This document shows positions 621 to 24,110 of a stretch of DNA of 25,494 nt, one piece after another. Origin of the DNA: a virus. The notes under the pieces are model-generated. The model was not told the origin of the DNA, did not search any database, and saw only the letters and a program-made list of their open reading frames with translations. The position numbers were made by a program, and so were the translations under genes. The stretch is taken from IMG/VR virus record IMGVR_UViG_3300008267_011834, positions 1-25,494 of that record. The stretch is one strand, 5' to 3'. Positions within the stretch are counted from its first letter, which is position 1; each line of letters begins with the position of its first letter.

Positions 621-1049
621 TTACAAAGAATACTTAGATTTAAAGGAATCGATAAATGTCTCACCAACTCCTAATTCTAAAATAATAGATGTTTCTGGAA
701 TACCTGGTAGTGATGGGGCTGTTAAAATATAATCAACATTTTCATTCCACCAAATTTTCATTTTAGTTTTAGCATTTGAACGTTCTGATGTTTTAAACAC
801 CATTACTACAGGTTGCTTATTATAAGCTTTACCTTTTTCAACTTTAACTTTTTCGTGTTTATAATCTTTAGGGTAGGTAATTTCGGTTTTATAAGGACCG
901 TTGTTGTTTTTACTTTTATCATAGTAAAAAACTGTTTTACGTCCCAACTCTGGTTTGGTTGGTACCTCATGAAAAATCATTTCCCATTTTTCTCTAGGTT
1001 CAGCATTTCCTTCTGCTGGCCTACCTCTACGTTCTGTTTTTATTTCCAT
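621..1049 (-). CDS. Hypothetical protein with AT-hook-like N-terminus
   Basis: This encodes 142 residues. The ATG at 1049 (MEIKTERRGRP) is preferred over an upstream ATG at 1139 because it follows the conserved AAGGTTATG start context and a strong promoter, and because the longer form would run deep into the HNH gene. Residues 6-11 (ERRGRP) resemble an AT-hook DNA-binding core. The middle is rich in Lys and Tyr, and the C-terminal third is hydrophobic with Pro/Gly turns (APSLPGIPETSIILELGVGE). No catalytic motif is recognised. The AT-hook reading is a suggestion from one short motif only. Confidence 0.7.
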   Translation of the reverse strand: MEIKTERRGRPAEGNAEPREKWEMIFHEVPTKPELGRKTVFYYDKSKNNNGPYKTEITYPKDYKHEKVKVEKGKAYNKQPVVMVFKTSERSNAKTKMKIWWNENVDYILTAPSLPGIPETSIILELGVGETFIDSFKSKYSL

Positions 1050-1082
1050 AACCTTTATTTCTTTATATTGTAAATATACGAA
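1046..1082 (-). repeat. 37-bp direct repeat, copy 1
   Basis: These 37 bases are identical to 1940-1976. The repeat holds the start codon context (AAGGTTATGG) of the downstream gene, an A/T-rich leader, and the -7 half of a promoter (CGTATATTTAC). The two copies enclose the HNH and SWIM genes, with a period of 894 bp. A recombination between copies would remove exactly those two genes and leave one promoter intact. Confidence 0.9.
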
Positions 1083-1479
1083 CAGGATCTGTGGTATCCA
1101 AATCTTTTCTATATTTTTTATTAATATAGTCGCCTTCATTATATGATTTTATAATGTGGCACATCTTACATAAGAGTTGATAATTTGATGGTTGCTCGCC
1201 TTCTGGTGTACCTTTAATAGCTGGATTAATATGGTCAACATCCATAGCTGTAATAATAGCTTTTAATTCAGCATTTTTATAGTGATTAACCATATCTAAA
1301 CTACAATGCTCACAAATTAAATCGTTATTTACTACTTTTTCTACTTTATACATTAACCAAGGACGTACAGGTGCATTAGCAGCATATTTTTTATACTGGA
1401 TATGTACATTACAATATTTTAAATATTGTCCATTTTTACCTTTTTTAGTTTCGTTATTACACCAAGAAACTTTACACAT
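1063..1479 (-). CDS. HNH endonuclease (likely free-standing homing type)
   Basis: This is a 138-residue protein. The HNH core is intact: C56-x2-C59, then D-V-D-H-I-N at 80-85 with the catalytic-type His83, Asn99 in NYQLLC, and C104-x2-C107-H108. A second Cys/His cluster at the N-terminus (C2, C7, C23, H26) could bind another zinc. HNH enzymes of this type make double-strand breaks or nicks in DNA, and in T4-like phages such genes often behave as mobile homing endonucleases. The start codon abuts the stop of the SWIM gene. The C-terminal residues are encoded within promoter P1, and the gene lies between the 37-bp direct repeats. Confidence 0.85.
   Translation of the reverse strand: MCKVSWCNNETKKGKNGQYLKYCNVHIQYKKYAANAPVRPWLMYKVEKVVNNDLICEHCSLDMVNHYKNAELKAIITAMDVDHINPAIKGTPEGEQPSNYQLLCKMCHIIKSYNEGDYINKKYRKDLDTTDPVRIFTI
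1070..1102 (-). promoter_or_regulatory. Bacteroidota-type promoter P1
   Basis: Read on the minus strand, TTTG at 1102-1099 is followed after exactly 20 nt by TATATTTAC at 1078-1070. The wider match to the other promoters in this window includes GGATACC at the upstream box and TTCG just before TATATT. This agrees with the known Bacteroidota layout TTTG-N19-21-TAnnTTTG apart from the last bases. It lies across the 3' end of the HNH gene and would drive the gene starting at 1049. Confidence 0.75.
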
Positions 1480-1943
1480 TATAGTCCTAATTTTTGCCTA
1501 ACTTCTTTCATGTGCTTACATTGTCTATCTTTTGCTCGATATTGACCAGCACAATTACATTTTACTTTATCACCTGTTACTCGAACAACATAAAAACTAC
1601 CAGGTTCACTTTTTGATTCAAATTTATATTCTGTTGTTGTTGGCTTTGAATCTTCTGGTTGACGTGTTTTTTTAATTTCAGGTTTAATCCATTCAATATC
1701 ATTCAATGTAGTTTCAGGTAATACTTCCATCCAAGCAGGTACAATATATGTTTTACCTGTTGTTGGTGAATGGATTATTGTTGGTGGTAATATTGGGTGT
1801 TCATAAGTGTATTTAAAACGACTTACACCAACTACTTTACCAAAACCAGGACCGTGTGAGAATGGTTTACCATCAGGCAAAGCAATAATGCGATGTCTCC
1901 AATTACCATACTTGTTTAAATTACTAAATTTCCAGAGTGCCAT
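1479..1943 (-). CDS. SWIM zinc-finger protein
   Basis: This encodes 154 residues. The C-terminus carries a SWIM-type zinc motif, C-N-C at about 134-136 and C-K-H at about 147-149 (CNCAGQYRAKDRQCKHMKEV), the pattern CxCx(n)CxH found in proteins that bind DNA or partner proteins. The N-terminal 80 residues (WKFSNLNKYGNWRHRIIALP) are Trp/Gly/Pro-rich and not recognised. The start has the AAGGTTATG context directly behind promoter P2. The single-nt overlap with the HNH gene downstream suggests the two are co-expressed. Whether it binds DNA or works with the HNH enzyme is unknown. Confidence 0.75.
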   Translation of the reverse strand: MALWKFSNLNKYGNWRHRIIALPDGKPFSHGPGFGKVVGVSRFKYTYEHPILPPTIIHSPTTGKTYIVPAWMEVLPETTLNDIEWIKPEIKKTRQPEDSKPTTTEYKFESKSEPGSFYVVRVTGDKVKCNCAGQYRAKDRQCKHMKEVRQKLGL

Positions 1944-1976
1944 AACCTTTATTTCTTTATATTGTAAATATACGAA
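1940..1976 (-). repeat. 37-bp direct repeat, copy 2
   Basis: This copy is identical to 1046-1082. Similarity continues as promoter-like sequence further upstream (TTTGGA.ACC), but the spacer between the two boxes differs, so perfect identity ends at the -7 side. It marks the upstream edge of the SWIM-HNH pair. Confidence 0.9.
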
Positions 1977-1996
1977 AGGTATTTACGGTCTCCAAA
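1964..1996 (-). promoter_or_regulatory. Bacteroidota-type promoter P2
   Basis: TTTG at 1996-1993 (minus strand), a 20-nt spacer, then TATATTTAC at 1972-1964. The upstream box overlaps the last codons of the methyltransferase gene ending at 1983. It should drive the SWIM and HNH genes. The leader from the -7 box to the ATG is about 20 nt of A/T-rich sequence. Confidence 0.75.
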
Positions 1997-2597
1997 TCCC
2001 TATGCCACCAAAGTGTTCTTTTTCTCCAAAACACGTTATTTTACCAGAAGATTTAATAGTAACTATATTAGTTTTTGAACCATATGGTATATCTTGCCAA
2101 AATCTATATACTTCACCACCAGCACCATCTCTGAATATATGTTCAGGGTCAATGTCATGAAATACTATACAACCACGTGGTGATAATAATTCTTGGTATA
2201 ATTCAAAATCACGTCGTACACCTTCATATGAATGGTCCCCATCAATAAAAATCAAATCATATTGTGGACAAAATTCTTTAACTTGGTTTTTAGTTTCTTC
2301 AGTTTGTGAATCAGCTATAAACAATTTAAAATCTTCATTATACATCATATAATGAGACCAAATTGTACGTCCATTATCCTCTAAATCAACAGCAACTTTT
2401 TTACCTGTTGAAAGTTGAGACATAATATGAAATGAGCTACCTTTAAAACCAATTTCTAAAACATTATGTGCTTGGAATCCTTTAAGCCAATAAGCAAATG
2501 TAGTTATTTCTTCATATACTTGTTGAAATAAAGTAGGGGCAACTAAAAAATCCTTAACATGATAATTAATTAAATCTTCTATATTTACGTCTTTCAT
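1983..2597 (-). CDS. Class I SAM-dependent methyltransferase
   Basis: This 204-residue protein has a Rossmann-type methyltransferase layout: NVLEIGFKGSSFHIM (about 45-59) is the motif I/glycine loop, DLIFIDGDHSYEGVRRD (about 115-131) is the post-motif strand typical of Methyltransf_24 proteins, and RGCIVFHDIDPE follows. Members methylate small molecules, sugars or antibiotics; the acceptor cannot be read from the sequence. It shares a 1-nt TAATG junction with the FkbM methyltransferase and is preceded by a sugar kinase, so a role in modifying a phage- or host-made glycan is a reasonable inference. Confidence 0.85.
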   Translation of the reverse strand: MKDVNIEDLINYHVKDFLVAPTLFQQVYEEITTFAYWLKGFQAHNVLEIGFKGSSFHIMSQLSTGKKVAVDLEDNGRTIWSHYMMYNEDFKLFIADSQTEETKNQVKEFCPQYDLIFIDGDHSYEGVRRDFELYQELLSPRGCIVFHDIDPEHIFRDGAGGEVYRFWQDIPYGSKTNIVTIKSSGKITCFGEKEHFGGIGIWRP

Positions 2598-3547
2598 TAT
2601 CTATAAAATAAAATTGTACCATTTTCACTATTTATTTCACATCCAGATTCAAATTTAAATTTAAATCCTAATGAACCCATTCTATTAATTACTTGTTCAA
2701 GTTTACCATCAGGCCAGTGATATTCTAAAAGAAATTTATCTGTAATTTCAAATACATTGTTAGGTGTACTATCTAATACTTCCCATTCACTACCTTCAAT
2801 ATCTATCTTTAGTAAATTAATATTATCCCATCCTGTTTGTTCTACTAGTTTTTCTAATGTTGTTGTAGGTACAGTTTTAGAATTTGGACTATCATAATTA
2901 CTGAATTCACTATCTTGGAAATTTAAACTATTTACTAATGGATTATCTTCTTTCCAATATAATTCCATTTCTCCTTCACTACTATAAAGTGCTTTAGGAA
3001 CAATAGTAACTTGTGGATAATATGAAAAATTACTAATTAATGCTTTAATACTTCTATCATCACATTCAACTGTAAATACTTCTTCAGCACCTTTATTAAG
3101 CATGTATTTAGTAAATAAACCAATACTTCCACCGGCATCAATTACTCGTTTACATCCTTCTAAATCAAATTCTTTATATCTATCCCAAACAAAAAATTCT
3201 CTATAGTTTACAAACACTGGATGATAAAAATCATTCATATCTTGTTTGTTTTTATACATTTCAGTGTATCTAAGACGTACAAATTGTCTGTCAAGAATTT
3301 TACCTTCATCTACTAATTCAAAACTAAACCCACCAAAGTCAGGTTGTTGGAAATCAAAAGCAAATTTTGGAATTGGAATAAAGAAAATATGTAATCCAGG
3401 TTGGACATCCCAAATTTTCATTTTGTAAATAGTAGTATCTAGATCAATATCTTTTACTACAAAAAACCCATTTTTTACTGGGTGGTTAATTCTGATGTCA
3501 AATTTTTGTTCATCAAAATTGTAACTAATTAATTCAAATTTATTCAT
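2597..3547 (-). CDS. FkbM-family methyltransferase
   Basis: This encodes 316 residues. The methyltransferase domain fills the C-terminal two thirds: RVIDAGGSIGLFTKYMLNKG (motif I), VFTVECDDRS (acidic residue for the SAM ribose), NLLKIDIEGSEWEVLDS (FkbM signature KxDxEGxE) and LLEYHWPDGKLEQVI. The N-terminal ~110 residues form a beta-rich region with no family that I recognise. FkbM enzymes usually O-methylate sugars or polyketides. The gene overlaps the kinase upstream by ATGA and the next methyltransferase downstream by one base, so the three are probably translationally coupled. Confidence 0.88.
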   Translation of the reverse strand: MNKFELISYNFDEQKFDIRINHPVKNGFFVVKDIDLDTTIYKMKIWDVQPGLHIFFIPIPKFAFDFQQPDFGGFSFELVDEGKILDRQFVRLRYTEMYKNKQDMNDFYHPVFVNYREFFVWDRYKEFDLEGCKRVIDAGGSIGLFTKYMLNKGAEEVFTVECDDRSIKALISNFSYYPQVTIVPKALYSSEGEMELYWKEDNPLVNSLNFQDSEFSNYDSPNSKTVPTTTLEKLVEQTGWDNINLLKIDIEGSEWEVLDSTPNNVFEITDKFLLEYHWPDGKLEQVINRMGSLGFKFKFESGCEINSENGTILFYR

Positions 3548-4278
3548 GGTGTTGCTACTCCTCTTTTATTTACTACATTGGATGCCATTTGGTTAGCATA
3601 ATCTATTGCCTCAACAACATTTAAACAAGAATAATAATCTAAAGCAAATGCTGCTACAAATGTATCACCTGCTCCTGAAACGTCTATTGTTTGTTGAGGA
3701 TTATTTTGTGGTATTATTTTATCTTGATATGATGCTCCTTTATCTCCTAAAGTTACAATTAAACCAGAATGATTTATACCTAAATTATTTTTATATTCTG
3801 TTTCATTTAATTTAATAAATGAAAAATCTTCAATAATTTCATTACTTAATTTGCGTTTACTATCTAAAATAGATAATTTAGATTTTTTAGATATAGCTTT
3901 AAGATGAGAATTATTCAAAAATCCTTTATTATAATCACTTACAATTACTATATCTGCTTCTGCTAATAAAACATCCATTTTTGGAGTCCATTGTAGGTCT
4001 GAGATATGTTCTTCACCTTCATCAACTCTAATAAACATGTGATTTGTTTTAATATCAACGTAACGAGTTTTTGTAATATGCTCCGGTTGATTTATAATAG
4101 AAACGATACTATCCGGTTGTAGTGATTTAATATTAGCAACAACATTCCCAGCCATTCCTGGGTTTTCTGTTGTTTTAATTGGATTTAATATGGGTATTGG
4201 GGCTTCTGGTGAAAGTCTGTTTATAGAACTATAAACAAATTTATCAACACATGTTTCCCCTATCACTACTATTTTCAT
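3544..4278 (-). CDS. PfkB-family sugar kinase, RfaE/HldE kinase-domain-like
   Basis: This 244-residue protein starts MKIVVIGETCVDKFVYSS and contains the RfaE-like run RLSPEAPIPIL (21-31), the glycine-rich substrate loop NPGMAGNVVAN (39-49), SDYNKGF (114-120) and the PfkB signature DVSGAGDTF (199-207) with catalytic-type Asp205. RfaE1/HldE kinases phosphorylate D-glycero-D-manno-heptose-7-phosphate on the way to ADP-heptose for LPS; the substrate here may be heptose-7-P or a related sugar. It is shorter than the bacterial kinase domain (about 320), so lid or dimer loops may be trimmed. The AAGGTTATG start context supports 4278; it overlaps the preceding small gene by 35 nt. Confidence 0.85.
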   Translation of the reverse strand: MKIVVIGETCVDKFVYSSINRLSPEAPIPILNPIKTTENPGMAGNVVANIKSLQPDSIVSIINQPEHITKTRYVDIKTNHMFIRVDEGEEHISDLQWTPKMDVLLAEADIVIVSDYNKGFLNNSHLKAISKKSKLSILDSKRKLSNEIIEDFSFIKLNETEYKNNLGINHSGLIVTLGDKGASYQDKIIPQNNPQQTIDVSGAGDTFVAAFALDYYSCLNVVEAIDYANQMASNVVNKRGVATP

Positions 4279-4435
4279 AACCTTCTTTTTCGATTTCTTC
4301 TTTTATTAATTGAATATCTAAAGTTAGAGCGATACAAAGTCTTTTTAATGCTCCCCAATCGTTTATAGCTATATTAACTAAAACATCATCTGGGATTGAG
4401 TCAAAAAATGATAATGCGCTCAATTTAGTCTTCAT
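4244..4435 (-). CDS. Small hypothetical protein
   Basis: This encodes 63 residues, starting at ATG 4435 (MKTKLSALSFFDSIPDD). A GTG two codons upstream would add only two residues and is less likely. The protein looks mainly helical (DVLVNIAINDWGALKRLCIALTLDIQLIKEEIEKE) and mildly acidic. It overlaps the 42-residue gene upstream by 11 nt and the sugar kinase downstream by 35 nt, an arrangement typical of phage operons. An AGGTGA stretch lies just ahead of the ATG. I do not recognise a family. Confidence 0.6.
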   Translation of the reverse strand: MKTKLSALSFFDSIPDDVLVNIAINDWGALKRLCIALTLDIQLIKEEIEKEGYENSSDRGNMC

Positions 4436-4553
4436 CTTCACCTAAAATAGACTTTAACCAAGTTGGTTGTTTTTTCTTTTTAGGTTTAATTTTACGATCA
4501 GCGATCCAAATTTTAAGAGTTTCTACTCGTTGGCGGTTGCTTGTCTTACTCAT
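4425..4553 (-). CDS. Small basic hypothetical protein (42 aa)
   Basis: This short frame reads MSKTSNRQRVETLKIWIADR, then a Lys/Pro-rich stretch, then WLKSILGEDED. It starts in the TAAGTTATG context shared by many genes here. The basic body with a short acidic tail could bind nucleic acid or a partner protein, but no family is recognised. The stop falls inside the next gene. Confidence 0.6.
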   Translation of the reverse strand: MSKTSNRQRVETLKIWIADRKIKPKKKKQPTWLKSILGEDED

Positions 4554-4574
4554 AACTTAATTTATTTTTGATTG

Positions 4575-4715
4575 TTATCCTTGTCCTACGCTAGGTTTTT
4601 TATAATTAGTTGCGTTTTTAGCTTTAGAAGTTTTTGTTTTAGCATGAACTCCTGGTCTTGTAACTTTAACTTTTTCTTTTTTAGCTACTGCGGTTTGTGT
4701 TTTAGTTTTTGCCAT
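4575..4715 (-). CDS. Small, highly basic hypothetical protein (46 aa)
   Basis: This frame begins MAKTKTQTAVAKKEKVKVTR and ends with ATNYKKPSVGQG. Nearly a third of its residues are Lys or Arg and there are almost no acidic residues. The RPGVHAKTKTSKAKNATNYKKPSVGQG type of tail resembles tiny basic proteins that I recall from marine T4-like phages, function unknown. It follows a 7-bp hairpin and an A-rich leader. Nucleic-acid binding is a guess from charge alone. Confidence 0.6.
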   Translation of the reverse strand: MAKTKTQTAVAKKEKVKVTRPGVHAKTKTSKAKNATNYKKPSVGQG

Positions 4716-4721
4716 TGAATG

Positions 4722-4743
4722 ATTGGGGTTTTTATACCCCAAT
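4722..4743 (-). promoter_or_regulatory. Intergenic hairpin upstream of the 46-aa gene
   Basis: A perfect 7-bp stem (ATTGGGG / CCCCAAT) with an 8-nt A/T loop sits between the glucosaminidase stop (4749) and the ATG at 4715. No U-tract follows on the minus strand, so it is not a classic intrinsic terminator. It could be an RNA-stability or processing hairpin, or could affect access to the start codon 6 nt downstream. Confidence 0.4.
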
Positions 4744-4748
4744 ACATA

Positions 4749-5312
4749 TCAAAACAAGTCTTTAAGTTTCTCTTTTTCAACTACATTTTTAAGTACTTGA
4801 ACATAATTTCCAGCTTCAGCATAATTTTGGCTTAAGTAGGCATAGTAATCTTCTTCAGTACTAATTCCACCTAAATACCTACACTGATAAAAAGCATAGT
4901 CATAAACTGATTGGTACCAATCATCATAATAAGCATGACCATTTTGAGTACCATTAGCTGTATTAATTCGAACTGTTGCTTGTTTCATTCCAAACAAGTT
5001 GTGGTTTTCTTTAAATACATTACTTGTCCAATGTCCAGTTTCAATAATTGATTGGGCCATTACAATGTGAGGGAATTTTACATTTAATCGTTCAAGTTCA
5101 GCAGCAAATTTTTCTTGAGTAAACTTGTTTTTTTCAGCAGCTAAATTTACTACCAACAATTCTCTTTCTCGCTCATCTAATGCTTTGATTCTAAGTAAAC
5201 GTCCAGCACTAAACGAAATAAGTGATACCACAATAACTGTTCCTAGAGCAATTTTGTGGGCCAATTTGGTTTTAACAAATTGTAGTTTGTTTGGGTCGTA
5301 TTTATAAAACAT
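4749..5312 (-). CDS. Membrane-anchored glucosaminidase (FlgJ/endo-GlcNAcase type)
   Basis: This encodes 187 residues. One hydrophobic segment (about 21-40, IALGTVIVVSLISFSAGRLL) after a basic N-terminus suggests a type II membrane anchor. A short helical linker follows, then a glucosaminidase domain (about 65-187): PHIVMAQSIIETGHW with catalytic-type Glu91, KENHNLFGMK (101-110), YDDWYQSVYDYAFY, and LSQNYAEAGNYVQVL. Such enzymes cleave glycosidic bonds in peptidoglycan. In a phage it would serve host lysis (a signal-anchor endolysin) or wall modification. It is expressed from promoter P3 with the AAAGTTATG start. No holin is recognised next to it. Confidence 0.85.
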   Translation of the reverse strand: MFYKYDPNKLQFVKTKLAHKIALGTVIVVSLISFSAGRLLRIKALDERERELLVVNLAAEKNKFTQEKFAAELERLNVKFPHIVMAQSIIETGHWTSNVFKENHNLFGMKQATVRINTANGTQNGHAYYDDWYQSVYDYAFYQCRYLGGISTEEDYYAYLSQNYAEAGNYVQVLKNVVEKEKLKDLF

Positions 5313-5327
5313 AACTTTTTTATTTGC

Positions 5328-5360
5328 GTGAATATACGAACAATAGTTCGGGTATCCAAA
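5328..5360 (-). promoter_or_regulatory. Bacteroidota-type promoter P3
   Basis: TTTG at 5360-5357 (minus strand) with GGATACC, a 20-nt spacer ending TTCG, then TATATTCAC at 5336-5328. It lies between the 101-aa gene (stop at 5362) and the glucosaminidase, giving a leader of roughly 15-20 nt (AAATAAAAAAGTT) before the ATG at 5312. Confidence 0.75.
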
Positions 5361-5361
5361 T

Positions 5362-5667
5362 TTATTTTATTACTTTTAAAGACTCTATGACTTTAGTGAT
5401 TTCAGCACATTTTTCATATAGTTCTTCTCTAACGTAGTATGGTAAATTTTCCTCTAATGTTTCAACAAAATGCTTACGTTCAACAGTAATATCATATATT
5501 TCGCCTTCTTCTAAGCAAGTAATAGATAAAACGTGTACGTGTTTTTTCTTTGAATTAACATTATCTAAAATACCTTCTACAATTGCTTGAGCAATTCTAA
5601 AGTCTTTGTTGTCTACTAACTCCTGAAATTCCTCAGTGTTATTAACTGTTATTTCTGTTGCTCTCAT
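5362..5667 (-). CDS. Hypothetical protein (101 aa)
   Basis: The protein begins MRATEITVNNTEEFQELVDN. It is acidic, with alternating helices and strands and a central His/Lys patch (KKKHVHVLSITC). No membrane segment, metal cluster or catalytic motif is evident. It follows the 62-aa gene by one base and precedes promoter P3, so it ends its transcription segment. Family not recognised. Confidence 0.65.
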   Translation of the reverse strand: MRATEITVNNTEEFQELVDNKDFRIAQAIVEGILDNVNSKKKHVHVLSITCLEEGEIYDITVERKHFVETLEENLPYYVREELYEKCAEITKVIESLKVIK

Positions 5668-5668
5668 A

Positions 5669-5857
5669 TTAAAATAAATCTAAAAATTTTGTGTTGATTT
5701 CTTTACCTTTTAATCTACTATTTTTTTCGTCTTTTTCTAACATTTTAGTAGTAAGATTTTCAAGGTGTTTGGATTTTTGGGCATCGTAGTCATTAACTAA
5801 CTTATCGTGCTTTTTGTTTTTACCCTTTTTGAGTAAAGGGATTCGTTTTGGTTTCAT
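5669..5857 (-). CDS. Small Lys-rich hypothetical protein (62 aa)
   Basis: This protein starts MKPKRIPLLKKGKNKKHDK and is very basic at the N-terminus and more balanced later, ending KFLDLF. It is likely helical from about residue 20. It overlaps the HTH/HNH-like gene by ATGA (start at 5857, upstream stop at 5854), which supports translation. No family is recognised. Confidence 0.6.
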   Translation of the reverse strand: MKPKRIPLLKKGKNKKHDKLVNDYDAQKSKHLENLTTKMLEKDEKNSRLKGKEINTKFLDLF

Positions 5858-6495: not shown

Positions 6496-6806
6496 TATTC
6501 TTCTATTTTAACATCGCCTGGAGTTGGTAGATTATCATGTGAATCTTCATCTCCATTGTATTCTGCTTTAGGAGCACTAGAGGCAATTTTCCTCATTTTA
6601 TTTTCAGCGGCCATGTATTGTTGGTACTCATCGTGTTCCAAAAATATGGTTTCAACCCAAGTATGGTCACCTTCTCCTTTTAATAATGTTACTGCTCCTT
6701 TTTTCTGTACTGTTGAACACGGAACACATGTTACAGCATTTGGAATAATTTCTAATCGTTTTGGGTGGATTTGCTCACCACATCCTTTACAATATCTTAC
6801 ATTCAT
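6495..6806 (-). CDS. TraR/DksA-type C4 zinc-finger protein
   Basis: This encodes 103 residues. The N-terminus has C6-x2-C9 and C27-x2-C30 with the TraR/DksA-like text CKGCGEQIHPKRLEIIPNA followed by CVPC. The remaining ~70 residues are polar with an acidic tail (PTPGDVKIEE). DksA/TraR proteins act at the RNA polymerase secondary channel through a coiled coil, but a coiled coil is not evident here, so only the zinc finger is supported. A role in transcription or DNA binding is inferred. It starts in the AAAGTTATG context. Confidence 0.7.
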   Translation of the reverse strand: MNVRYCKGCGEQIHPKRLEIIPNAVTCVPCSTVQKKGAVTLLKGEGDHTWVETIFLEHDEYQQYMAAENKMRKIASSAPKAEYNGDEDSHDNLPTPGDVKIEE

Positions 6807-6811
6807 AACTT

Positions 6812-7183
6812 TTATTTTAATTCTATTTTTTTAATAAATTCCCACAGTTCTTCTACTGTCTCAATAAATATTTCTTCTTCGGTTTCCTTAATATGATCGT
6901 TTAGATTAATTGGAAGCACACTTCCATCCTCATCAAATCGTTCAAATAACCACCACAACATAATATCACCTTTCCATTCTCCATAGTGCATGTAAATTAA
7001 ATTTTCAATAACTATATAAAATGGTTCTTCATAATTTGATATACCTAAACCAAATTCACCTTCAATAACGTTAGAACGAACCCAACATTCATTTAATAAC
7101 CCTACAACTTCTACAAATAAATCTTTATCAGTTGGGTCTTTAGTACGTGACTTTATATTTAGGTGTTTACCAAAAGGTGTCAT
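6812..7183 (-). CDS. Hypothetical protein (123 aa)
   Basis: The protein begins MTPFGKHLNIKSRTKDPTDK. It is acidic and Trp/Tyr-rich in the middle (YMHYGEWKGDIMLWWLFERFDEDGS) with an acidic helical tail (EEEIFIETVEELWEFIKKIELK). The style resembles small conserved T4-like phage proteins of unknown function, but I cannot name a family. Its ATG overlaps the stop of the 52-aa gene upstream (ATGA). Confidence 0.65.
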   Translation of the reverse strand: MTPFGKHLNIKSRTKDPTDKDLFVEVVGLLNECWVRSNVIEGEFGLGISNYEEPFYIVIENLIYMHYGEWKGDIMLWWLFERFDEDGSVLPINLNDHIKETEEEIFIETVEELWEFIKKIELK

Positions 7184-7338
7184 ACAATCGTTATAATAGC
7201 GTATAATTTTAAAAATTCCTTAAGAGGCAACTGCTTCCGCCCAGCAAATATTTTAGCCGCTTGTAGACGTGATAATGTTACTGTGCGGTTAATTACTTCT
7301 TGATGTTTGTCGTAACGTGAATAATATCCGAATACCAT
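7180..7338 (-). CDS. Small hypothetical protein (52 aa)
   Basis: This short frame reads MVFGYYSRYDKHQEVINRTV and ends with LKLYAIITIV. The region LSRLQAAKIFAGRKQLPLKEFLKLY has the amphipathic helix-turn-helix look of small DNA-binding phage proteins, but this is only suggestive. It is supported by an ATGA overlap with the next gene and by the promoter-like P5 just upstream. Confidence 0.6.
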   Translation of the reverse strand: MVFGYYSRYDKHQEVINRTVTLSRLQAAKIFAGRKQLPLKEFLKLYAIITIV

Positions 7339-7344
7339 AATTGT

Positions 7345-7376
7345 GTAAATATAATAATAAGTATTTAAAAATCCTA
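7345..7376 (-). promoter_or_regulatory. Weak promoter-like sequence P5
   Basis: TATATTTAC at 7353-7345 on the minus strand matches the -7 box of P1 and P2. At the expected 20-nt distance there is TAGGAT (7376 downward) instead of TTTGGAT. It would separate the glycan block from the downstream small-gene block. The -7 box is good and the upstream box only partial. Confidence 0.45.
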
Positions 7377-9080
7377 GTTTATTATGAGAGAATTTTGATA
7401 TTCACTCATATGAATTATGTTTATTGTAAATATATCTAATTCAAATGTTCCTATATCTCCACTGTCTTTTATAATTTCTGAAAGTTGATATAAAATTTGA
7501 ATGTTTTGATTATTTAATTTAGATGCATCAAATGATACTAAAATATTGTTTTGCTTTTCATTATCATAAGGTTTAATACGCTCTTGAAGATCAAATTTAG
7601 TATTAGATTGTTCTTTTTGTATATAATCAGGAACAATTAACTGCATATCATCTTTAATATAAATTGTTGAACACCATGGTTCTAGTATCTCTAAATGAGG
7701 TAATCCACAATTGGATACTATAAAACCTACATCATATTTAGGAGGAATAATTGGTTTCATTAATGAATCATGTTTACAAAAATGACCCCATTTACGAATA
7801 AAATTACGAGTAGATCTTATATTTTGAGCTTCCCATTCTGAACTATTAGTTCCTGGAGTTGTTAATGTTGGGTTGAATCTAGAACCTCTACAAGTCATAT
7901 GATAAACACATCCTTCCCATGTTTGGAGAAATTTAACTCCATTTAATTGAAAACGATTAAAAATATCACTATCTTCTTTTGATTGAGGAGCATATAAAGG
8001 ATCATGACCACCAATTTCCTGGAAGTCAGATTTCATAAATGCCCAAGGAGCGAATACACCTTCTGTAGGTTGGTAATGTTTTGGTTTTAAATCATTTTTA
8101 AACCAATTTAAAAATTTATCTTCATCAAATTCTTCTGTTTCAATTCCAAAATCAGCAAGTATTTTTTCAGGTCCATCTGGGTGTAATGGTGGTTCGATTC
8201 TGGTTAATGATACAATTGTTTTTGGTGCAATGTATTTTGAAATTTCATTTAATGCGTTAGGACATAAGTACATATCAGCATGATAAATCATACAAATATC
8301 ATGTGTAGCTACTTCATTTACTAATTTATCATATAAAATAGTATGTCCTAAACGAGTTGGTCCTTCATTTCTAATTGCTTTAAAATAAGGATCTTTTTGC
8401 ATCATTTCTTGACACCATTCCCAAGTACCATCGTTACTAAAATCATCAGCTATACAAATTTCTGCTTCGTGATCCCCTTGATTTTTTCTTATAGCATTAT
8501 AAGACCATTTTAGATATTTAAGATTATTTCTAGAAGGTTGTATAAAACTAATTTTTATATTTGTACTTTTTTTATTTATTCTATCTAAAACTTCTTTTTT
8601 AGGTTTTAAAGCTACTATACTTTGACCTGATTGGACATAATCAATAACATCATACCATTTTTCAACAATAAAATATTGAGAACGTTGCCAATAATCATGA
8701 ATAAAGACAATACTATCTTCTTTTAAGTATGGTAATACTTTTTCAGCACACCATCCTCTACCACGACCATCTATTAAAACTCTATCAAATTTTTCTACTC
8801 CTAATTTATCAACAAAATCTAGGTATGTTTGTACTTGAGTTTTTTGGGTTGGGTCTGTTAGGGGTTTATCTAACTCTATTAAGTGATAATCTACATTATC
8901 CGGTGTTTCTTTTTTTACATTATCAAACCAACTTGGATCGTGTTCGATTGAATAATATTTTTTTACATATTTAGGAAATTCAGTAGTTGACCCTCCTGAA
9001 CCCCATTCTAACATAATGTGTGAAGGATCTAAATTTGATTTTATTAAATCAATTTCTTCGTTTGACATCCAAATTTGCAT
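7374..9080 (-). CDS. Fusion: class I methyltransferase-like + GT2 glycosyltransferase
   Basis: This encodes 568 residues. Residues 1-165 are methyltransferase-like: HIMLEWGSGGSTTEF (motif I), YYSIEHDPSWF (acidic ribose-binding residue), KFDRVLIDGRGRGWCAEKVL and DSIVFIHDYW. Residues ~175-400 are a family 2 glycosyltransferase: KISFIQPSRNNLKYLKWSYN, CIADDFSNDGTWEW and MIYHADMYLCP, where HAD takes the DxD-like metal position; later GGHDPLYAPQSKEDSD is typical of the acceptor side. Residues ~430-568 (YDVGFIVSNCGLPHLEILEP) are not recognised. The protein could methylate and transfer sugars on one glycan. It lies 2 nt behind another GT2 gene. Confidence 0.82.
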   Translation of the reverse strand: MQIWMSNEEIDLIKSNLDPSHIMLEWGSGGSTTEFPKYVKKYYSIEHDPSWFDNVKKETPDNVDYHLIELDKPLTDPTQKTQVQTYLDFVDKLGVEKFDRVLIDGRGRGWCAEKVLPYLKEDSIVFIHDYWQRSQYFIVEKWYDVIDYVQSGQSIVALKPKKEVLDRINKKSTNIKISFIQPSRNNLKYLKWSYNAIRKNQGDHEAEICIADDFSNDGTWEWCQEMMQKDPYFKAIRNEGPTRLGHTILYDKLVNEVATHDICMIYHADMYLCPNALNEISKYIAPKTIVSLTRIEPPLHPDGPEKILADFGIETEEFDEDKFLNWFKNDLKPKHYQPTEGVFAPWAFMKSDFQEIGGHDPLYAPQSKEDSDIFNRFQLNGVKFLQTWEGCVYHMTCRGSRFNPTLTTPGTNSSEWEAQNIRSTRNFIRKWGHFCKHDSLMKPIIPPKYDVGFIVSNCGLPHLEILEPWCSTIYIKDDMQLIVPDYIQKEQSNTKFDLQERIKPYDNEKQNNILVSFDASKLNNQNIQILYQLSEIIKDSGDIGTFELDIFTINIIHMSEYQNSLIIN

Positions 9081-9082
9081 AA

Positions 9083-18761: not shown

Positions 18762-18764
18762 AAC

Positions 18765-19175
18765 CTATTTTTTCCACTTATTTTTCATTACTAACATAGC
18801 AATAATACCATAATTAGCAATATCTAAAAAACTATCAATCATTGCTTCACCTTCAACATAATTTTTACCATCACGTTTAATAAGATTTTTTAAACGGTTG
18901 ATTTTATCATTACAACGAAGCCAAATACCTGTAAGTGATAATTTGATATCTTCTGGATCTTCAAGATTAGTGCCTAATGAAATATTCCCTAAACCATAAT
19001 CCATCATTTTTTTAGCAAATAATTCATACTGTTCTTGTTGAGTTTCTTTCCAAGCTTCGGCTAATGTTGGATAAGTTTTTTCGAAATCAGCAACTGCTTT
19101 TTTTGTTCCTGTTGGATCTATTTCTGATGCACGGTTAAATGTTACACCACCCCATATTTCTGCGTTTTTTGTCAT
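18765..19175 (-). CDS. DUF1599 / Nmad1-like protein
   Basis: This 136-residue protein contains QYELFAKKMMDYGLGNISLG and LSLTGIWLRCNDKINRLKNL followed by a helical tail ending DIANYGIIAMLVM. This matches my memory of DUF1599, also named nucleotide-modification-associated domain 1, an all-helical MazG-like fold. Domains of this kind are predicted to act on or sense nucleotides, sometimes in phages with modified DNA bases. Activity is not proven and no base-modifying enzyme is recognised nearby. It overlaps the gp62-like gene by ATGA. Confidence 0.75.
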   Translation of the reverse strand: MTKNAEIWGGVTFNRASEIDPTGTKKAVADFEKTYPTLAEAWKETQQEQYELFAKKMMDYGLGNISLGTNLEDPEDIKLSLTGIWLRCNDKINRLKNLIKRDGKNYVEGEAMIDSFLDIANYGIIAMLVMKNKWKK

Positions 19176-19594
19176 ATAACTAGGTCTTTAATTAATTTTT
19201 TAATTTCTTTTTCTTCGATACCACATTGGAAAAGAATATGTTCAACACCTTCTCTTCGTAAAATATACGTATACTCTTCTGCTTCTCCAAGCCCACACGT
19301 AAAGTAGTCAGCAATATGAACTAGTAATGAATCAGATGTTTTTTTACGAGTAGATTTAATGTATTTTAAAAACATTTTCTTTTTTGGGATCATAGATTTG
19401 TATGTGTTATAGATGGTTTCTTTTTCAGTATAAGGGAATTTTTGTACAACATTTGTTATATCAATATATCCCTCATACATACTAAGAAATCTATGAACCA
19501 TGTAAGAATTGAACGAAGATTGTTGATCTTCGGTAAAACTCTTCCAATCTTTTTTATCGTAAGTAATCTGATTCAACCAGTCAAATATTGTCAT
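19172..19594 (-). CDS. 62: Clamp loader small subunit, T4 gp62-like
   Basis: This encodes 140 residues. The N-terminus MTIFDWLNQITYDKKDWKSF and VHRFLSMYEGYIDITN match the short gp62 proteins of marine T4-like phages as I remember them (pattern FDFLNxINxxKKD ... NRxLS). It then has IPKKKMFLKYIKS, which fits the basic run seen in that family. With gp44 it forms the 4:1 clamp loader that opens the gp45 ring. It is shorter than T4 gp62 (187). Its position two genes behind the thioesterase and near gp44 supports the call; sequence divergence is high. Confidence 0.75.
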   Translation of the reverse strand: MTIFDWLNQITYDKKDWKSFTEDQQSSFNSYMVHRFLSMYEGYIDITNVVQKFPYTEKETIYNTYKSMIPKKKMFLKYIKSTRKKTSDSLLVHIADYFTCGLGEAEEYTYILRREGVEHILFQCGIEEKEIKKLIKDLVI

Positions 19595-19595
19595 T

Positions 19596-19850
19596 TTACT
19601 CTTGTTCTGAGGCGAATTCTTCTCTTAATTCTTTAGGTAACATTTCTAGTAATACTTTACCAGTAGCAATATCATAAAACACAGGAATTGGAACTACAGC
19701 ATCTTCAGATGTACCTGTAATAAATTTAGAGATTTTACGTAAAACTACTGCTTGACCAAATAATTGGTTACCTTCAGGAGATTTAATTGCTTGAGATTTA
19801 TTCAAGTCAACATTAATGTTCATTTGTTGGGGTTGTTGTTGTTTGTTCAT
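19596..19850 (-). CDS. Small hypothetical protein (84 aa)
   Basis: The protein begins MNKQQQPQQMNINVDLNKSQ, with a Gln-rich leader, then AVVLRKISKFITGTSEDAVV and PIPVFYDIATGKVLLEMLP, and an acidic end. An internal ATG (MNINVDLNK) is an alternative start at 19823. The middle recalls a small zinc-ribbon protein family of marine T4-like phages (RKxSxxxSPTG...xPIPVF), but the cysteines of that family are absent here, so the link is weak. It lies one base before the gp62-like gene. Confidence 0.6.
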   Translation of the reverse strand: MNKQQQPQQMNINVDLNKSQAIKSPEGNQLFGQAVVLRKISKFITGTSEDAVVPIPVFYDIATGKVLLEMLPKELREEFASEQE

Positions 19851-20034
19851 TTTTATATTTTTTATAATCTAAATAAAATCCAATTGCTACAATAATATTC
19901 ATACCAAAGGACATAAGGATTTCATATATGTCTTGGTACACATTCATAGTTAAGTGAACATGTCCTACCATCCAGAACGGTATGGACAAATTACTTGATA
20001 TCCAAGTTAAAAGATAAACTATGAAATGTTTCAT
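19813..20034 (-). CDS. Small membrane protein (73 aa)
   Basis: Two hydrophobic segments are visible: about 3-23 (HFIVYLLTWISSNLSIPFWM) and about 39-55 (EILMSFGMNIIVAIGFYL), followed by a charged and Thr-rich tail (DYKKYKNEQTTTTPTNEH). It probably spans the inner membrane twice. It starts in the AAAGTTATG context and overlaps the thioesterase by 4 nt and the next gene by 38 nt. No family is recognised; being an inner membrane protein within a replication operon is unusual. Confidence 0.6.
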   Translation of the reverse strand: MKHFIVYLLTWISSNLSIPFWMVGHVHLTMNVYQDIYEILMSFGMNIIVAIGFYLDYKKYKNEQTTTTPTNEH

Positions 20035-20432
20035 AACTTTGAGTCTGGTGTTTTAAACATTCTTTTAACCTGTTCTGAGATAGGAATAGGTGTTCCTTCA
20101 TCGTCTACTCGAACAAAAGTCATATGTGTTTTTAGGATAATTTCTTCATCACCTCTAAACACATTGTATGTTCTAGCTTCAACTTCAAACGTAGCTGATG
20201 TATTGCCTATTTTAGTCATATCAGCATATATTTTTACTAATTGACCTTCTTTAGCTGCTTTTTCAAATACACATTTATCTAAGGCAATGGTAATCATATT
20301 TTTACTATGACATTTTTCCATTGCATAAGCAGCTACGGCGGCATCAATCCAACTCAATAATTTTCCACCAAATAGATTTCCATGAAATCCTAAATCGAGT
20401 TTTTTAACAGGGTGAGTTGAAATTAAGTCCAT
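20031..20432 (-). CDS. Hotdog-fold acyl-CoA thioesterase
   Basis: This encodes 133 residues. FHGNLFGGKLLSWIDAAVAA (17-36) is the classic acyl-CoA hydrolase signature (hotdog helix with Gly-Gly and the Asp of the active site, as in YciA/BFIT-type enzymes), followed by VKIYADMTKIGNTSATFEVE and MTFVRVDDEGTPIPI. Family members hydrolyse acyl-CoA to free fatty acid and CoA in the cytoplasm. The gene is complete and is joined to gp44 and the small membrane protein by 1-4 nt overlaps. Its purpose in a replication operon is not known; lipid or acyl-sugar metabolism during infection is possible. Confidence 0.88.
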   Translation of the reverse strand: MDLISTHPVKKLDLGFHGNLFGGKLLSWIDAAVAAYAMEKCHSKNMITIALDKCVFEKAAKEGQLVKIYADMTKIGNTSATFEVEARTYNVFRGDEEIILKTHMTFVRVDDEGTPIPISEQVKRMFKTPDSKL

Positions 20433-21364
20433 TATTTTATAAGTTGAGGTTTTGCTAATTCAATTAAACGACTAATTAAAGCCATACAATTGATTTCTTT
20501 ATCGATTCTAAAATTTGATTGATAGGTGTATTCATTAATGTAAATTGCAACCATACCCTCGTTACCGGAAGCATATTCGCTTGCGTTATCATACAGGTAT
20601 CTATACAGTTCTTCAAAATCATTTACATTAGCATCAGCAATAATTTGTCTGATTGTTCTCCAATTAGGTGATTTTGCTTGTAGTTCTTTTACAATTTGAA
20701 CCATATAACTGTTAGATACAAGCAATGATTTATCCATTGTAATTTTACCATCATGGTTACTTAATTGTAGTGTATTAAGTACTTTACGAAGATCAGGATA
20801 AAACTGGTTTACAACTGCTTTTAAATCATTAATATCATATTCAGCATTTTCTTTCTCTAAAATACCAGCTACGTGTTTTGCTACATCTGTTTTTGTAGGT
20901 GGAACAATTTTAAGTACCTGACAACGTGATTGAAGAGGATCAATAATACGTTCAACATAATTACAAGTTAAAATAAATCTTGTAGTACGTGAATATGTTT
21001 CAATAATATTCCTTAACGACGCCTGAGCTTGTATAGTAAGGAAATCAGCCTCGTCCAAGATGATAACTTTGAGCGGCTTAAAAGAAGCAACAGACGCGAA
21101 CCCTTGTACCTTATCTCTAATAGTTTCAATACCACGCTCATCGGAAGCATTAATATAGATATAATCGCAATCAAGATTACCAACAATGAGCTTAGCAAGA
21201 GTAGTTTTACCAGTACCAGCTGGGCCATAGAAAATAAAATTTTGAATGTCATTCTGGTTTAGGTATTGTTGAATTGTTTTTTTAATGTTTTCGTTGCCGA
21301 CATAATCTTCTAATACTTTGGAACGATAACGTTCAACCCAAAGTGTATGTTCTTTTCTACTCAT
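20432..21364 (-). CDS. 44: Clamp loader large subunit, T4 gp44/RFC-like AAA+ ATPase
   Basis: This encodes 310 residues from ATG 21364 (MSRKEHTLWVERYRS); an ATG six codons earlier is less likely. Motifs in order: WVERYRSKVLEDYVG (box II), Walker A FYGPAGTGKTTLAK (46-59 region), Walker B VIILDEADFL (100-109), sensor 1 RFILTCNY, and the arginine-finger motif SRC (146-148). The last ~100 residues match the helical collar. It hydrolyses ATP to load the gp45 clamp at primer-template junctions. It overlaps the upstream gene by 8 nt and shares one base with the thioesterase downstream. Confidence 0.93.
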   Translation of the reverse strand: MSRKEHTLWVERYRSKVLEDYVGNENIKKTIQQYLNQNDIQNFIFYGPAGTGKTTLAKLIVGNLDCDYIYINASDERGIETIRDKVQGFASVASFKPLKVIILDEADFLTIQAQASLRNIIETYSRTTRFILTCNYVERIIDPLQSRCQVLKIVPPTKTDVAKHVAGILEKENAEYDINDLKAVVNQFYPDLRKVLNTLQLSNHDGKITMDKSLLVSNSYMVQIVKELQAKSPNWRTIRQIIADANVNDFEELYRYLYDNASEYASGNEGMVAIYINEYTYQSNFRIDKEINCMALISRLIELAKPQLIK

Positions 21365-21614
21365 AGTCTCCGTATAAATCAAATTTTTTAGGTGGTTCAG
21401 GAATAATTTCTACATCCTCTGTTGTGATAATATACAAATTTCCTTTCATAGGTTCAAGTCTAAATGCTTGAGGTTTAGTAGTTGCTTGTTGATACCAAGC
21501 ATTTAAGGCTTCAGTTAATGAATCGTGAACCTTCCCACCGTTAAGAAGTTGCCATCTGTCCCCAGGAGGAACTCTGTCAGCTATTTTAATATTTTTTTCT
21601 ACTTCTTTTTTCAT
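21357..21614 (-). CDS. Small hypothetical protein (85 aa)
   Basis: The protein starts MKKEVEKNIKIADRVPPGDR, has WQLLNGGKVHDSLTEALNAW and a C-terminal strand region with a Pro/Asp-rich end (PEPPKKFDLYGDYE). It starts in the CAAGTTATG context and overlaps both neighbours by 4-8 nt. I do not recognise a family. Its place between the chaperonin and clamp-loader genes suggests only co-expression. Confidence 0.6.
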   Translation of the reverse strand: MKKEVEKNIKIADRVPPGDRWQLLNGGKVHDSLTEALNAWYQQATTKPQAFRLEPMKGNLYIITTEDVEIIPEPPKKFDLYGDYE

Positions 21615-21799
21615 AACTTGACTTGTTCCATAAGATACGGCTGTAGGTCAGCATACCTGTAATTAACACTTGATTCATCTGGATTTCTGAGTTTTACATA
21701 TAAATTATAATTCCCAGGAACATGATAAAAATCTTCAATTACACGGACGATTTCATCAATGATGATCTCTTTTCCTACTAAACCTACAGCGTCTCTCAT
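21611..21799 (-). CDS. Small hypothetical protein (62 aa)
   Basis: This protein reads MRDAVGLVGKEIIIDEIVRV, then FYHVPGNYNLYVKLRNPDES and a C-terminal helix (DLQPYLMEQVKL). It appears beta-rich and could be an SH3-like small barrel. It starts in the TAAGTTATG context three bases behind the groEL stop and overlaps the next gene by 4 nt. Family not recognised. Confidence 0.6.
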   Translation of the reverse strand: MRDAVGLVGKEIIIDEIVRVIEDFYHVPGNYNLYVKLRNPDESSVNYRYADLQPYLMEQVKL

Positions 21800-21802
21800 A
21801 AC

Positions 21803-23464
21803 TTAAAACATTCCCCCCATACCCCCGAATCCAGGAGCATCATCTTTTTTCTCTTCAGGTGTGTCAACCACAACACACTCTGTTAATAGAATTGTACCTG
21901 CTACTGAAGCTGCATTTTGAAGTGCTTCACGAGTTACTTTAGCTGGATCGATAATACCTGCTTCTTTCATATTAACAAATTCATTTGATTTAAGGTCAAA
22001 ACCTTGCCAAATAAGTTTTTTGTCATATTTTTCAGCATCACCAACTTTCATTTTATCAACAAATCCATAAATGATAGCATCATCATAACCTGCGTTTTGA
22101 AGAATTTTCTTAAATGGAGCAGCACATGCTTTGTATACAATTTGTTGACCTAATTTATGGTCAGCTGAGCATTTAGTACAAGCATCATTAATTGCTTCTC
22201 TTGAAAACAATAATGCAGATCCACCACCTGGTACAATACCTTCTTCAAGTGCTGCTTTTGTAGCATGAAGTGCATCATCAACACGGTCTTTCTTTTCACG
22301 CATTTCTGTTTCAGTGTTTCCACCTACGTGTACAATAGCTACACCACCGATGAATTTAGCTAAACGCTCTTGCAATTTTTCACGTTCGTAAGGCGATTGT
22401 GCTTTTTCGATTTGTGATTGCAATTCTTCAATACGTGCTGAAATAGCTTCTTCTGTACCTTTACCATCAACGATAGTTGTATTATCTTTGTTTACTGTTA
22501 CAACACGTGCTTCACCAAACCATTTCCAATCAAATTTATCAAGTTTCATACCTTTTTCAGTACTGAATACTTGACCACCAGTCATGATAGCGATATCTTC
22601 AAGCAACAATTTACGACGGTCTCCAAAGTCAGGGGCTTTAACAGCTACAACTTTCAAAATACCACGAGCTTTGTTTACGATCAAAGTAGCAAGCGCTTCA
22701 CCTTCTACGTCCTCAGCAATAATCAACAATGATTTATTTTGAGCAGATACTGCTTCCAAAATAGGCAACAATTCTTTTACTTGAGTAAATTTCTTATCTG
22801 CGATCAAAATCAAAGCATCTTGGATACTTGTACTCATACTATTGTTATCTGTAACGAAGTAAGGTGATTTGTAACCACGATCAAACTGCATACCTTCTAC
22901 TGTTTCAAGATATGTTTCACCTGATTTAGATTCTTCAATGAATACAACACCTTCACGACCTACTTTTTGCATTGCTGTAGCAATCAATTCACCTACTTCA
23001 GGATCATTGTTTGATGAGATCGTAGCTACTTGTTTAAGTTGCTCTTCAGATGAAATATCTTCTTTAATATTTGAACGAAGGTGATGTAATACTTGAGTAA
23101 CTGCTTTATCAATACCACGCTTAATTTCTACAGCGTTAGCACCATTATTAAGATAAGTCAAACCAGCATTTACCATTTCACGAGCCAACAAAGTTGAAGT
23201 TGTTGTTCCATCACCTGCTAAATCAGCAGTTCTAATAGCTGCTTGTTTAACCATCTGTACACCCAAATCTTCAATATTATCTTCAAGTGTAATTGATTTT
23301 GCTACTGTAACACCATCTTTGGTACTTTGAGGTACACCTTGACTGGCAATAACAACATTTCGACCATTAGGTCCAAGTGTCGATGTAACGGCATCTGCTA
23401 GTTTATCAATACCAGTTGCTAATTTTCTACGGGCCTCAGGGCCAAATTCAATAATTTTACTCAT
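21803..23464 (-). CDS. groEL: Chaperonin GroEL (60 kDa), full length
   Basis: This encodes 553 residues from ATG 23464 ([20 protein letters not shown]); a longer upstream frame overlapping groES is rejected. All core motifs are present: [19 protein letters not shown] (Asp50), [12 protein letters not shown] (84-95, nucleotide site with Asp85), [10 protein letters not shown], the apical domain, [27 protein letters not shown], and a GGMGGMF tail. It forms the folding cage with GroES. The equatorial, intermediate and apical parts are all complete, so it should be active. Parts of the coding region look less AT-rich than the neighbours, which would fit a bacterial origin. Confidence 0.97.
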
Positions 23465-23466
23465 AA

Positions 23467-23760
23467 TTAATTTTGATTTACTTTTGCTAAAACTTGATTT
23501 TCTGGTCCAATCCAATATTCATCACCTTCGAATTCTAATTTACTGAATCCCATAGTAGGTAATACAACAGTATCTCCTACACTAAGAACAGTTTTAATGT
23601 AATCCCCAGTTACTGAATAATAACCTTCCCCAACTGCCACTACTTCGGCAAGTTTGTTTTTTTCATTTCCCAGATCTGGGACAATGATTCCTCCATAAGA
23701 GGTTTCTTCTGCTTCGATCGGTTTTACGATAACTGCATTGTAGATTGCTTCTAACTTCAT
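23467..23760 (-). CDS. groES: Co-chaperonin GroES
   Basis: This encodes 97 residues, normal length. It has the N-terminal strand LEAIYNAVIVKPIEAEE, the mobile loop EETSYGGIIVPD (about 17-28) that contacts GroEL, VVAVGEGYYSVTGDYI, VGDTVVLPTMGFSKLEFEGD and the closing ENQVLAKV. It caps the GroEL ring. Unlike T4, which carries only the distant co-chaperonin gp31, this phage has a bacterial-type GroES next to its own GroEL, two bases apart, so the pair is probably made together from promoter P4. Confidence 0.95.
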   Translation of the reverse strand: MKLEAIYNAVIVKPIEAEETSYGGIIVPDLGNEKNKLAEVVAVGEGYYSVTGDYIKTVLSVGDTVVLPTMGFSKLEFEGDEYWIGPENQVLAKVNQN

Positions 23761-23762
23761 AT

Positions 23763-24063
23763 TTAAATTGTTGTGTTTATTAGTTCATTGATTAATTTTT
23801 CGATTCGTTTATACGTTTCAAGATATTCTGTAATTGAATCGTAATTTTGTTTGTCGTTTGTTTTATTACGAGCAATTACTTTTAGACAATTACCAAAGTT
23901 ACTATAATGGCCTAATGCCTTAGTATACTCTTTACCTGGTTTGTTGTCTTCAGTATAACGTACATCAGGAGTGATGGTTTCATATACTGTATAGCAATGA
24001 GAGTCCTTACCAATAAAATAAACGAATTGTGGTGATTGATGATTCTTCTTTTTCTTTTGTCAT
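23763..24063 (-). pseudogene. Small gene with frameshift upstream of groES
   Basis: An ATG at 24063 in the ATGTTATG context directly behind promoter P4 opens MTKEKEESSITTIRLFYW and then stops. The next frame is open from just after that ATG to 23763 and clearly protein-like: QSPQFVYFIGKDSHCYTVYE, then NKPGKEYTKALGHYSNFGNC and a helical end (EYLETYKRIEKLINELINTT), but it has no start codon of its own. The span of 301 nt is one over a multiple of three. A single extra base (or +1 ribosomal shift) within the A/G-rich run at 24040-24060 would join them into about 99 residues. The product recalls DUF5405-like small phage proteins, weakly. Confidence 0.7.
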
Positions 24064-24078
24064 AACATTTTTATTTCC

Positions 24079-24110
24079 GTCAATATACGAAATTTCCTTC
24101 ATGTAACCAA
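24079..24110 (-). promoter_or_regulatory. Bacteroidota-type promoter P4 (chaperonin operon)
   Basis: On the minus strand, TTG (24110-24108, in GGTTGGTTAC) is followed after 20 nt ending TTTCG by TATATTGAC (24087-24079). The leader GGAAATAAAAATGTT precedes the ATG at 24063. It fits the other promoters here except that the first T of TTTG is G. It should drive the frameshifted gene, groES and groEL. The 50 nt between 24111 and 24163 show nothing else. Confidence 0.7.

Follow-up and report, generated by a model that had tools for sequence, protein, structure and literature searches.

A putative early promoter family, with overlapping hairpins at a subset of sites, in T4-related Flavobacterium phages

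Four copies of a two-box element, TTTGG-N15-TTCG-TATATT[TC]AC, one of them with a variant upstream box, were identified on the minus strand of the uncultured phage record IMGVR_UViG_3300008267_011834, which was analysed as its complete IMG/VR length of 25,494 bases (the window). We propose, with a probability of roughly 75% and on the strength of sequence comparisons, that these sites are early gene promoters (pre-late and mostly non-structural) of T4-related Flavobacterium-type phages, and that a subset of the family forms units with an overlapping hairpin. The family of promoter-like sites is real and, in the records sampled, mostly restricted to this phage clade. The nearest relative identified in culture is phage vB_FspM_immuto_2-6A of Flavobacterium sp. 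LMO8 (NC_055915), hereafter immuto. No description of the element was found in the portions of the open-licence literature that were available. A two-class promoter map, consisting of these early-type boxes and a late-type box (TATTTATA), would cover an abundant uncultured phage group with a cultured relative, would make the handling of the unusual Bacteroidota polymerase by T4-type phages directly testable, and would provide candidate parts for Flavobacterium in the form of fixed-spacing promoters and compact terminator–promoter units.

Distribution of the element in the window and related phages

The full pattern matched the minus strand of the window four times, the plus strand not at all and 60 dinucleotide shuffles not at all, so that the four shared sites described in the initial annotation are present far above chance. 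A looser core, TTGG-N15-TTCGTA, also gave four matches as compared to a shuffle mean of 0.03 and a maximum of 1. Beyond the window, TTNG-N17-19-TCGTATATTNA produced 57 matches over 12 related records, 10 of which were positive, and a single match for the reversed control, while at least 120 IMG/VR stretches contained the element and 2 contained its reversed form. When four large related records were scanned with a profile derived partly from those records themselves, matches of 10 bits or more had a density of 224 per Mb on the coding strand, as compared to 2.8 per Mb in controls. An open reading frame (ORF) of at least 25 aa begins 8–75 nt downstream of 90 of the 103 sites collected by boxes alone from 80 listed loci of at least 120, and 74 of these 80 loci encode at least one clade-like protein (71 at least three). 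Enrichment upstream of genes elsewhere, which had been put forward as a test of the family, is therefore strong by pattern counts, profile scan and ORF placement alike.

Alignment of 57 deduplicated sites indicated that TTTGG, TTCG and TATATT are shared, followed mostly by T or C, then A, then C. The spacer carries a milder pattern (Y at position 10 and A at positions 12–14), which recurred in 96 deduplicated sites collected by boxes alone, of which 95 were absent from the first set, and the A-rich leader before the ATG is likewise conserved across related sites. A proposed upstream extension, GGATACC, did not survive this comparison, as only TTTGG is conserved and the following bases vary. 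In immuto, the -33 box is mostly GTTGC, GTTGG or CTTGN. Across the family, the extended -7 box has the form TTC(G)-TATATT[TC]A[CG], its first T is mostly 20–45 nt from the start codon, and the genes that follow are mainly non-structural; TTCG is an additional conserved feature of the window's clade, but most immuto sites have TTC plus any base. Because of this variable base, a reading of CGT within TTCGTA as an extracytoplasmic function (ECF)-type signal was rejected. The pattern TTG-N16-TTCNTATATT was found 30 times on the coding strand of immuto and never on its other strand, once each in RB49, RM378 and LR756508, six times in Microcystis phage Mel-JY01, and in none of T4, FCL-2 and 6H. Mel-JY01 (PP395634, locus L418) is labelled as a cyanobacterial phage and is a relative of the clade, so that its host label may merit checking.

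All four window sites, and the genes that they precede, are on the minus strand. Site 1 (1070–1102) has TTTGG at 1098–1102, a 15-nt spacer, TTCG at 1079–1082 and the -7 box TATATTTAC at 1070–1078, with a leader at 1050–1069 and a gene at 621–1049. Site 2 (1964–1996) has TTTGG at 1992–1996, TTCG at 1973–1976 and TATATTTAC at 1964–1972, followed by a leader at 1944–1963 and a gene at 1479–1943. Site 3 (5328–5360), with TTTGG at 5356–5360, TTCG at 5337–5340 and TATATTCAC at 5328–5336, is separated by a leader at 5313–5327 from a glucosaminidase/endolysin gene (4749–5312; Pfam PF01832). Site 4 exists largely as first described, except that its upstream end is at 24111 rather than 24110 and its -33 box is the variant GTTGG: it spans 24079–24111, with GTTGG at 24107–24111, TTCG at 24088–24091, TATATTGAC at 24079–24087 and a leader at 24064–24078, before a small gene whose start codon is at 24063 and which lies upstream of groES. 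This small gene (23764–24063) is frameshifted in the window contig and intact in the relatives compared, and site 4 is also present at related loci L002–L007, L009 and L010. The first T of TATATT is at 1078, 1972, 5336 and 24087, respectively, and the exact 20-nt spacing to TATATT, the TTCG directly before the -7 box and an A-rich leader of 15 or 20 nt reaching the ATG all hold at each of the four sites.

A fifth site with a weaker upstream box had also been suggested. This site (7345–7377, minus strand; gene at 7180–7338) is a weak variant, with CTAGG at -33, TTAT replacing TTCG, and TATATTTAC at 7345–7353 (first T at 7353). Boxes were found near 4 of 11 orthologs of its gene, in records G005, G006, G008 and G012, as CTTGG or TTTGG, using a loose automatic search that missed site 5 of the window itself. 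Among orthologs of the other genes, boxes lay near 5 of 11 for site 1 in an automatic search that skipped the window's own site because a longer ORF start was taken; they were kept in 11 of 11 for site 2, with variable spacers (window and near-identical records counted), and in 7 of 8 for site 3 (window and immuto counted).

The minus strand holds most of the long ORFs of the window, whose genes encode a T4 gp44-like clamp loader (20432–21382, minus strand; PHROG 168, E 1.4e-79), which served as the bait for relatives, as well as a gp62-like protein, GroEL, GroES, the endolysin-like glucosaminidase and glycosyltransferases. Between the window and immuto there are 20 reciprocal best hits, with a mean identity of 48%, and the major capsid protein encoded by G005, a related record, matches the immuto capsid protein at 62.7% identity over 69% of the query. 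The T4 relationship is apparent from the gp44 homolog of the window and from homologs of gp17, 18, 20, 21, 23, 25, 41, 43 and 44 in G005. A Bacteroidota host for the window phage is well supported by this relatedness to immuto. GroEL was uninformative as a host indicator, with 64 loci giving a best identity of 59% and a mixture of phyla.

Early-type and late-type boxes

Assignment of the family to an early class was judged by gene position. Of the 97 immuto genes that have a 5' gap of 20 nt or more, 62 lie before 79 kb and 35 lie beyond it. Early-type boxes precede 26 and 2 of these, respectively (Fisher p 1.2e-4), and TATTTATA precedes 6 and 15 (p 2.5e-4); neither pattern was found at 49 of the 97 genes, the 79-kb boundary was set by us from the annotation, and some replication genes sit beyond it. 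In G005, profile matches of at least 25 bits fall at 0–8, 105–118 and 141–144 kb, with gp17–gp23 and gp18 located at ~49–84 kb. The late-type box TATTTATA lies ~18–41 nt before many immuto structural genes, is more frequent on the coding than on the other strand in both G005 (L145–L152; 46 vs 7) and immuto (L266–L269; 30 vs 15), and has no -33 element across 48 aligned sites. Because this different box precedes many structural genes, the family looks like an early class. The suggestion of a phage-specific temporal class is supported in so far as the two boxes differ by gene position.

The T4 late promoter box is TATAAATA. Like it, the late-type box of these phages is a single AT-only octamer near structural genes with no -35 element, but TATTTATA is the reverse complement of the T4 box and lies on the coding strand. 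The T4 orientation was not favoured on the coding strand of G005 (7 matches to TATAAATA vs 46 to TATTTATA). Under the proposed reading, transcript 5' ends of immuto would be expected a few nucleotides after TATATTTA for early genes and after TATTTATA for late genes.

A sigma-like protein of ~235 aa is encoded by G005 (L145:12417–13124) and by immuto (gp118, L267:28174–28872; 45% identity), where it is annotated as hypothetical, and is conserved in at least 599 related stretches in IMG/VR. Its only Pfam signal is a sub-threshold match to sigma region 2 (E 1.3e-4). Alignment to T4 gp55 by hhalign gave a probability of 0.8% with a shallow profile (Neff 1.8), and a PDB sequence search with the alignment of the protein gave no match. 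Searches of 13 records with phrog_234 (the gp55 family) found nothing and phrog_12791 yielded no late sigma match, although the controls for both likewise gave no match. The structural model is of middling quality (pLDDT 71.9, pTM 0.44), and the best 50 Foldseek rows include many sigma-factor chains by title, none with an E-value better than 0.24. These sequence and model comparisons make the protein a candidate sigma factor for the late class only. It is better suited to that class, as a -33 element is missing from the late box.

Hairpins overlapping the promoters and gene order

Folding was examined for 36-nt segments that start 12 nt upstream of the -33 box and end at the -7 box. For 41 immuto sites, the mean energy was -4.98 kcal/mol as compared to -2.84 for shuffled segments (sd of mean 0.24), and 11 sites reached -8 kcal/mol or below (expected 1.2; maximum 4 in 100 shuffles). 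The first related set of 56 sites, from which L072 was left out as apparently intragenic, had a mean of -4.62 vs -3.21 kcal/mol (sd 0.26), with 8 sites at or below -8 kcal/mol (expected 2.6, maximum 6). The independent set of 95 sites gave -4.65 vs -3.20 kcal/mol (sd 0.17) and 13 such sites (expected 5.9, maximum 11). Counted from the first T of the -7 box, 7 of the 12 higher-scoring spacer-centred hairpins of immuto end at -3, and the others between -4 and -8. Hairpin arm sequences vary while pairing is preserved; several immuto hairpins have UUCG loops or A-tract/T-tract flanks, and GAAA loops also occur. The immuto hairpins at which transcripts might end include those at 22068, 37294, 64498 and 104390. 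The start of the -33 box falls within -25 to +10 nt of the upstream stop codon at 51 of 94 sites. The immuto endolysin site is among the stronger hairpin–promoter overlaps. Spacer-stem scores averaged 4.07 vs 3.11 in the first set and 3.33 vs 2.97 for column-permuted sequences in the independent set, whose mean did not exceed the largest within-site shuffle; replication is thus limited to the 36-nt segment including the -33 box. Taken with the weaker observations considered below, these results indicate that the putative terminator–promoter unit is a feature of only part of the family.

In this subset, a strong hairpin would end the upstream transcript inside the promoter of the next gene, giving a compact terminator–promoter unit similar in its working to a promoter early stem-loop (PeSL). 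Gene shuffling between T4-like phages has been attributed to PeSLs (PMC4503421), and the units described here may similarly act as gene-swapping joints. Much as in PeSLs, a stem-loop may be joined to an early-type promoter between two genes at some sites of the Flavobacterium phages, and this arrangement may be linked to breaks in gene order. In RB49, a TTGAC promoter follows 8 of 16 listed terminators with the whole hairpin upstream of the -35 box, and we infer that these units are the published PeSLs. Whereas the RB49 hairpin precedes the -35 box, the Flavobacterium phage hairpin overlaps the -33 box and spacer, is found only at a subset of sites (weakly in the window) and accompanies boxes of Bacteroidota layout. 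The overlapping hairpin would therefore be a new variant of known terminator–promoter cassettes. Analysis of gene order, excluding record pairs above 90% mean identity, showed that the fraction with conserved neighbours was 0.245 for promoter junctions (n=86) as compared to 0.405 for other gaps measuring 35 nt or more (n=119; p 0.0022), with values of 0.673 for gaps of 20–34 nt (n=48) and 0.571 for tight junctions (n=612).

A number of observations weigh against the proposed reading. Most sites have no strong hairpin, and the four window sites fold weakly (-3.6 to -5.4 kcal/mol) with no clear T-tract, so that terminator activity at these sites is unsupported. Hairpins also occur in immuto gaps without promoters (-8 kcal/mol or lower in 11 of 68, expected 2.3), hairpin ends are more variable in the related set (-1 to -16; 54 of the 56 sites analysed), and strong stems within the 15-nt spacer were not replicated in the independent set (1 of 95 vs 1.3 expected). 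Hypervariable regions, as well as the use of simple gene calls, could confound the gene-order result. With respect to timing, three weaker G005 profile matches (11–22 bits) lie in or near the structural region, at 28.7, 45.9 and 95.6 kb, and an early-type promoter precedes the endolysin genes of both the window (4749–5312) and immuto (L266:22125–22685), which is unexpected for a strictly early class. Finally, the -7 boxes have A or C at -5, with G in 0 of 57 deduplicated sites, which makes reading by an unmodified host holoenzyme uncertain.

Relation to host promoters and competing explanations

Start sites of F. johnsoniae have a TAHHTTTG box with near-invariant T-12, A-11, T-8, T-7, T-6 and G-5 and a weak -33 box (PMC6847099), those of F. 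psychrophilum fall into TAnnTTTG, TAnnTTGY, sigma-54 and CGT-type classes (PMC9723704), and B. thetaiotaomicron promoters have both boxes with variable spacing (PMC7366714). None of the classes set out in the available text of these three sources is an exact match for the phage boxes. The phage sites resemble sigma-ABfr promoters (-33 TTTG and -7 TAnnTTTG) in having two boxes, a spacing within the 19–21 range, T-12, A-11, T-8 and T-7, and an A-rich leader. They differ at -5, where A or C replaces the near-invariant G, and at -6, which is mostly T or C, as well as in their strong TTTGG box, TTC(G) extension and fixed spacing. The Bacteroidota layout proposed in the initial annotation is consequently retained for the host phylum and 20-nt spacing and not for G-5, and its expectation that the host polymerase should read these sites is unsupported as stated. 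Reading by the host enzyme is, on these sequence grounds, plausible but not assured. The host core RNA polymerase would be used, most likely with the primary sigma factor of the host. The strong -33 box and the TTC(G) extension may allow this sigma factor to tolerate A at -5, possibly with the help of a phage protein.

One alternative is that the sites are ordinary host housekeeping promoters whose extra conserved bases are meaningless. Their spacing and the four shared -7 box positions would agree with this explanation, as would the broader form TAHHTT[CT]A, which is not depleted in the regions preceding genes of 15 Bacteroidota pieces (42 seen vs 37.2 expected). In the same pieces, however, TAHHTTTG is enriched (28 vs 8.7) and TATATT[CT]A is under-represented (1 vs 7.1). 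Equally, only 1 of 97 immuto genes has TAHHTTTG upstream, at a distance of 85 nt, a tighter count gave 0 of 67, and TTG-N19-21-TAHHTTTG is not commoner on the coding strand in 13 records (22 vs 28). Host-type promoters as a further class in the related records were rejected, as each of the 23 TAHHTTTG matches listed close to gene starts reads TAAATTTGG and thus consists of TAA plus the -33 box itself. TTTGGN15TTCGTATATT was no more frequent than chance in 247 genomes of the phylum to which G014 belongs, the contig of G014 being labelled Chitinophagaceae (7 matches in 6 genomes vs 7 for the reversed control). Given these results, the fixed spacing and the missing G-5, we consider the housekeeping explanation unlikely. 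Host boxes were detected near 2 of 23 FCL-2 genes and 2 of 22 6H genes (expected 0.8 and 0.5), numbers that are too small to judge.

A phage factor, either a T4-middle-like sigma appropriation or activator pair or a virion-delivered sigma, might instead make the host polymerase read this class. The consistent departure from the host -7 box, the strong -33 box, the TTC(G) extension and the sigma-like protein of the clade point in this direction, and no F. psychrophilum motif class matches as judged from the descriptions rather than the logos of PMC9723704. Nevertheless, no activator was identified, the sigma-like protein suits the late class better, and the genes needed first are read before any phage protein is made unless such a factor is injected, leaving this explanation doubtful while still to be reckoned with. 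Somewhat more doubtful is a stronger form of the early-promoter reading, in which the early promoters are poorly read by unmodified host polymerase owing to A for G at -5 and need a phage-altered holoenzyme, and in which an intrinsic terminator is folded into the promoter, with the -33 box doubling as the rising arm of the hairpin at which transcription of the preceding gene ends. The symmetry of the spacer could otherwise represent an operator bound by a dimeric regulator of phage or host origin, with no RNA hairpin. Dyads do lie between the two boxes and a regulator bound at a promoter spacer is a known arrangement, yet arm sequences vary with pairing kept, the UUCG and GAAA loops and the A-tract/T-tract flanks of immuto are present, and the -33 box frequently starts at an upstream stop codon, so we regard an operator as very improbable. 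We give hardly any credence to the sites being conserved RNA-processing or translation leader elements: the A-rich leader is conserved too and the segment after the -7 box is slightly more structured in the independent set (4 of 95 at or below -8 kcal/mol, expected 1.1), but that segment has no structure beyond shuffles in immuto or the first set, and the two-box layout, a fixed spacing within the known range of host promoters and occurrence on one strand all argue for promoters.

A further minor observation concerns the window gene at 24534–25274, which occupies the place where a sliding clamp would be expected and has no PHROG match.

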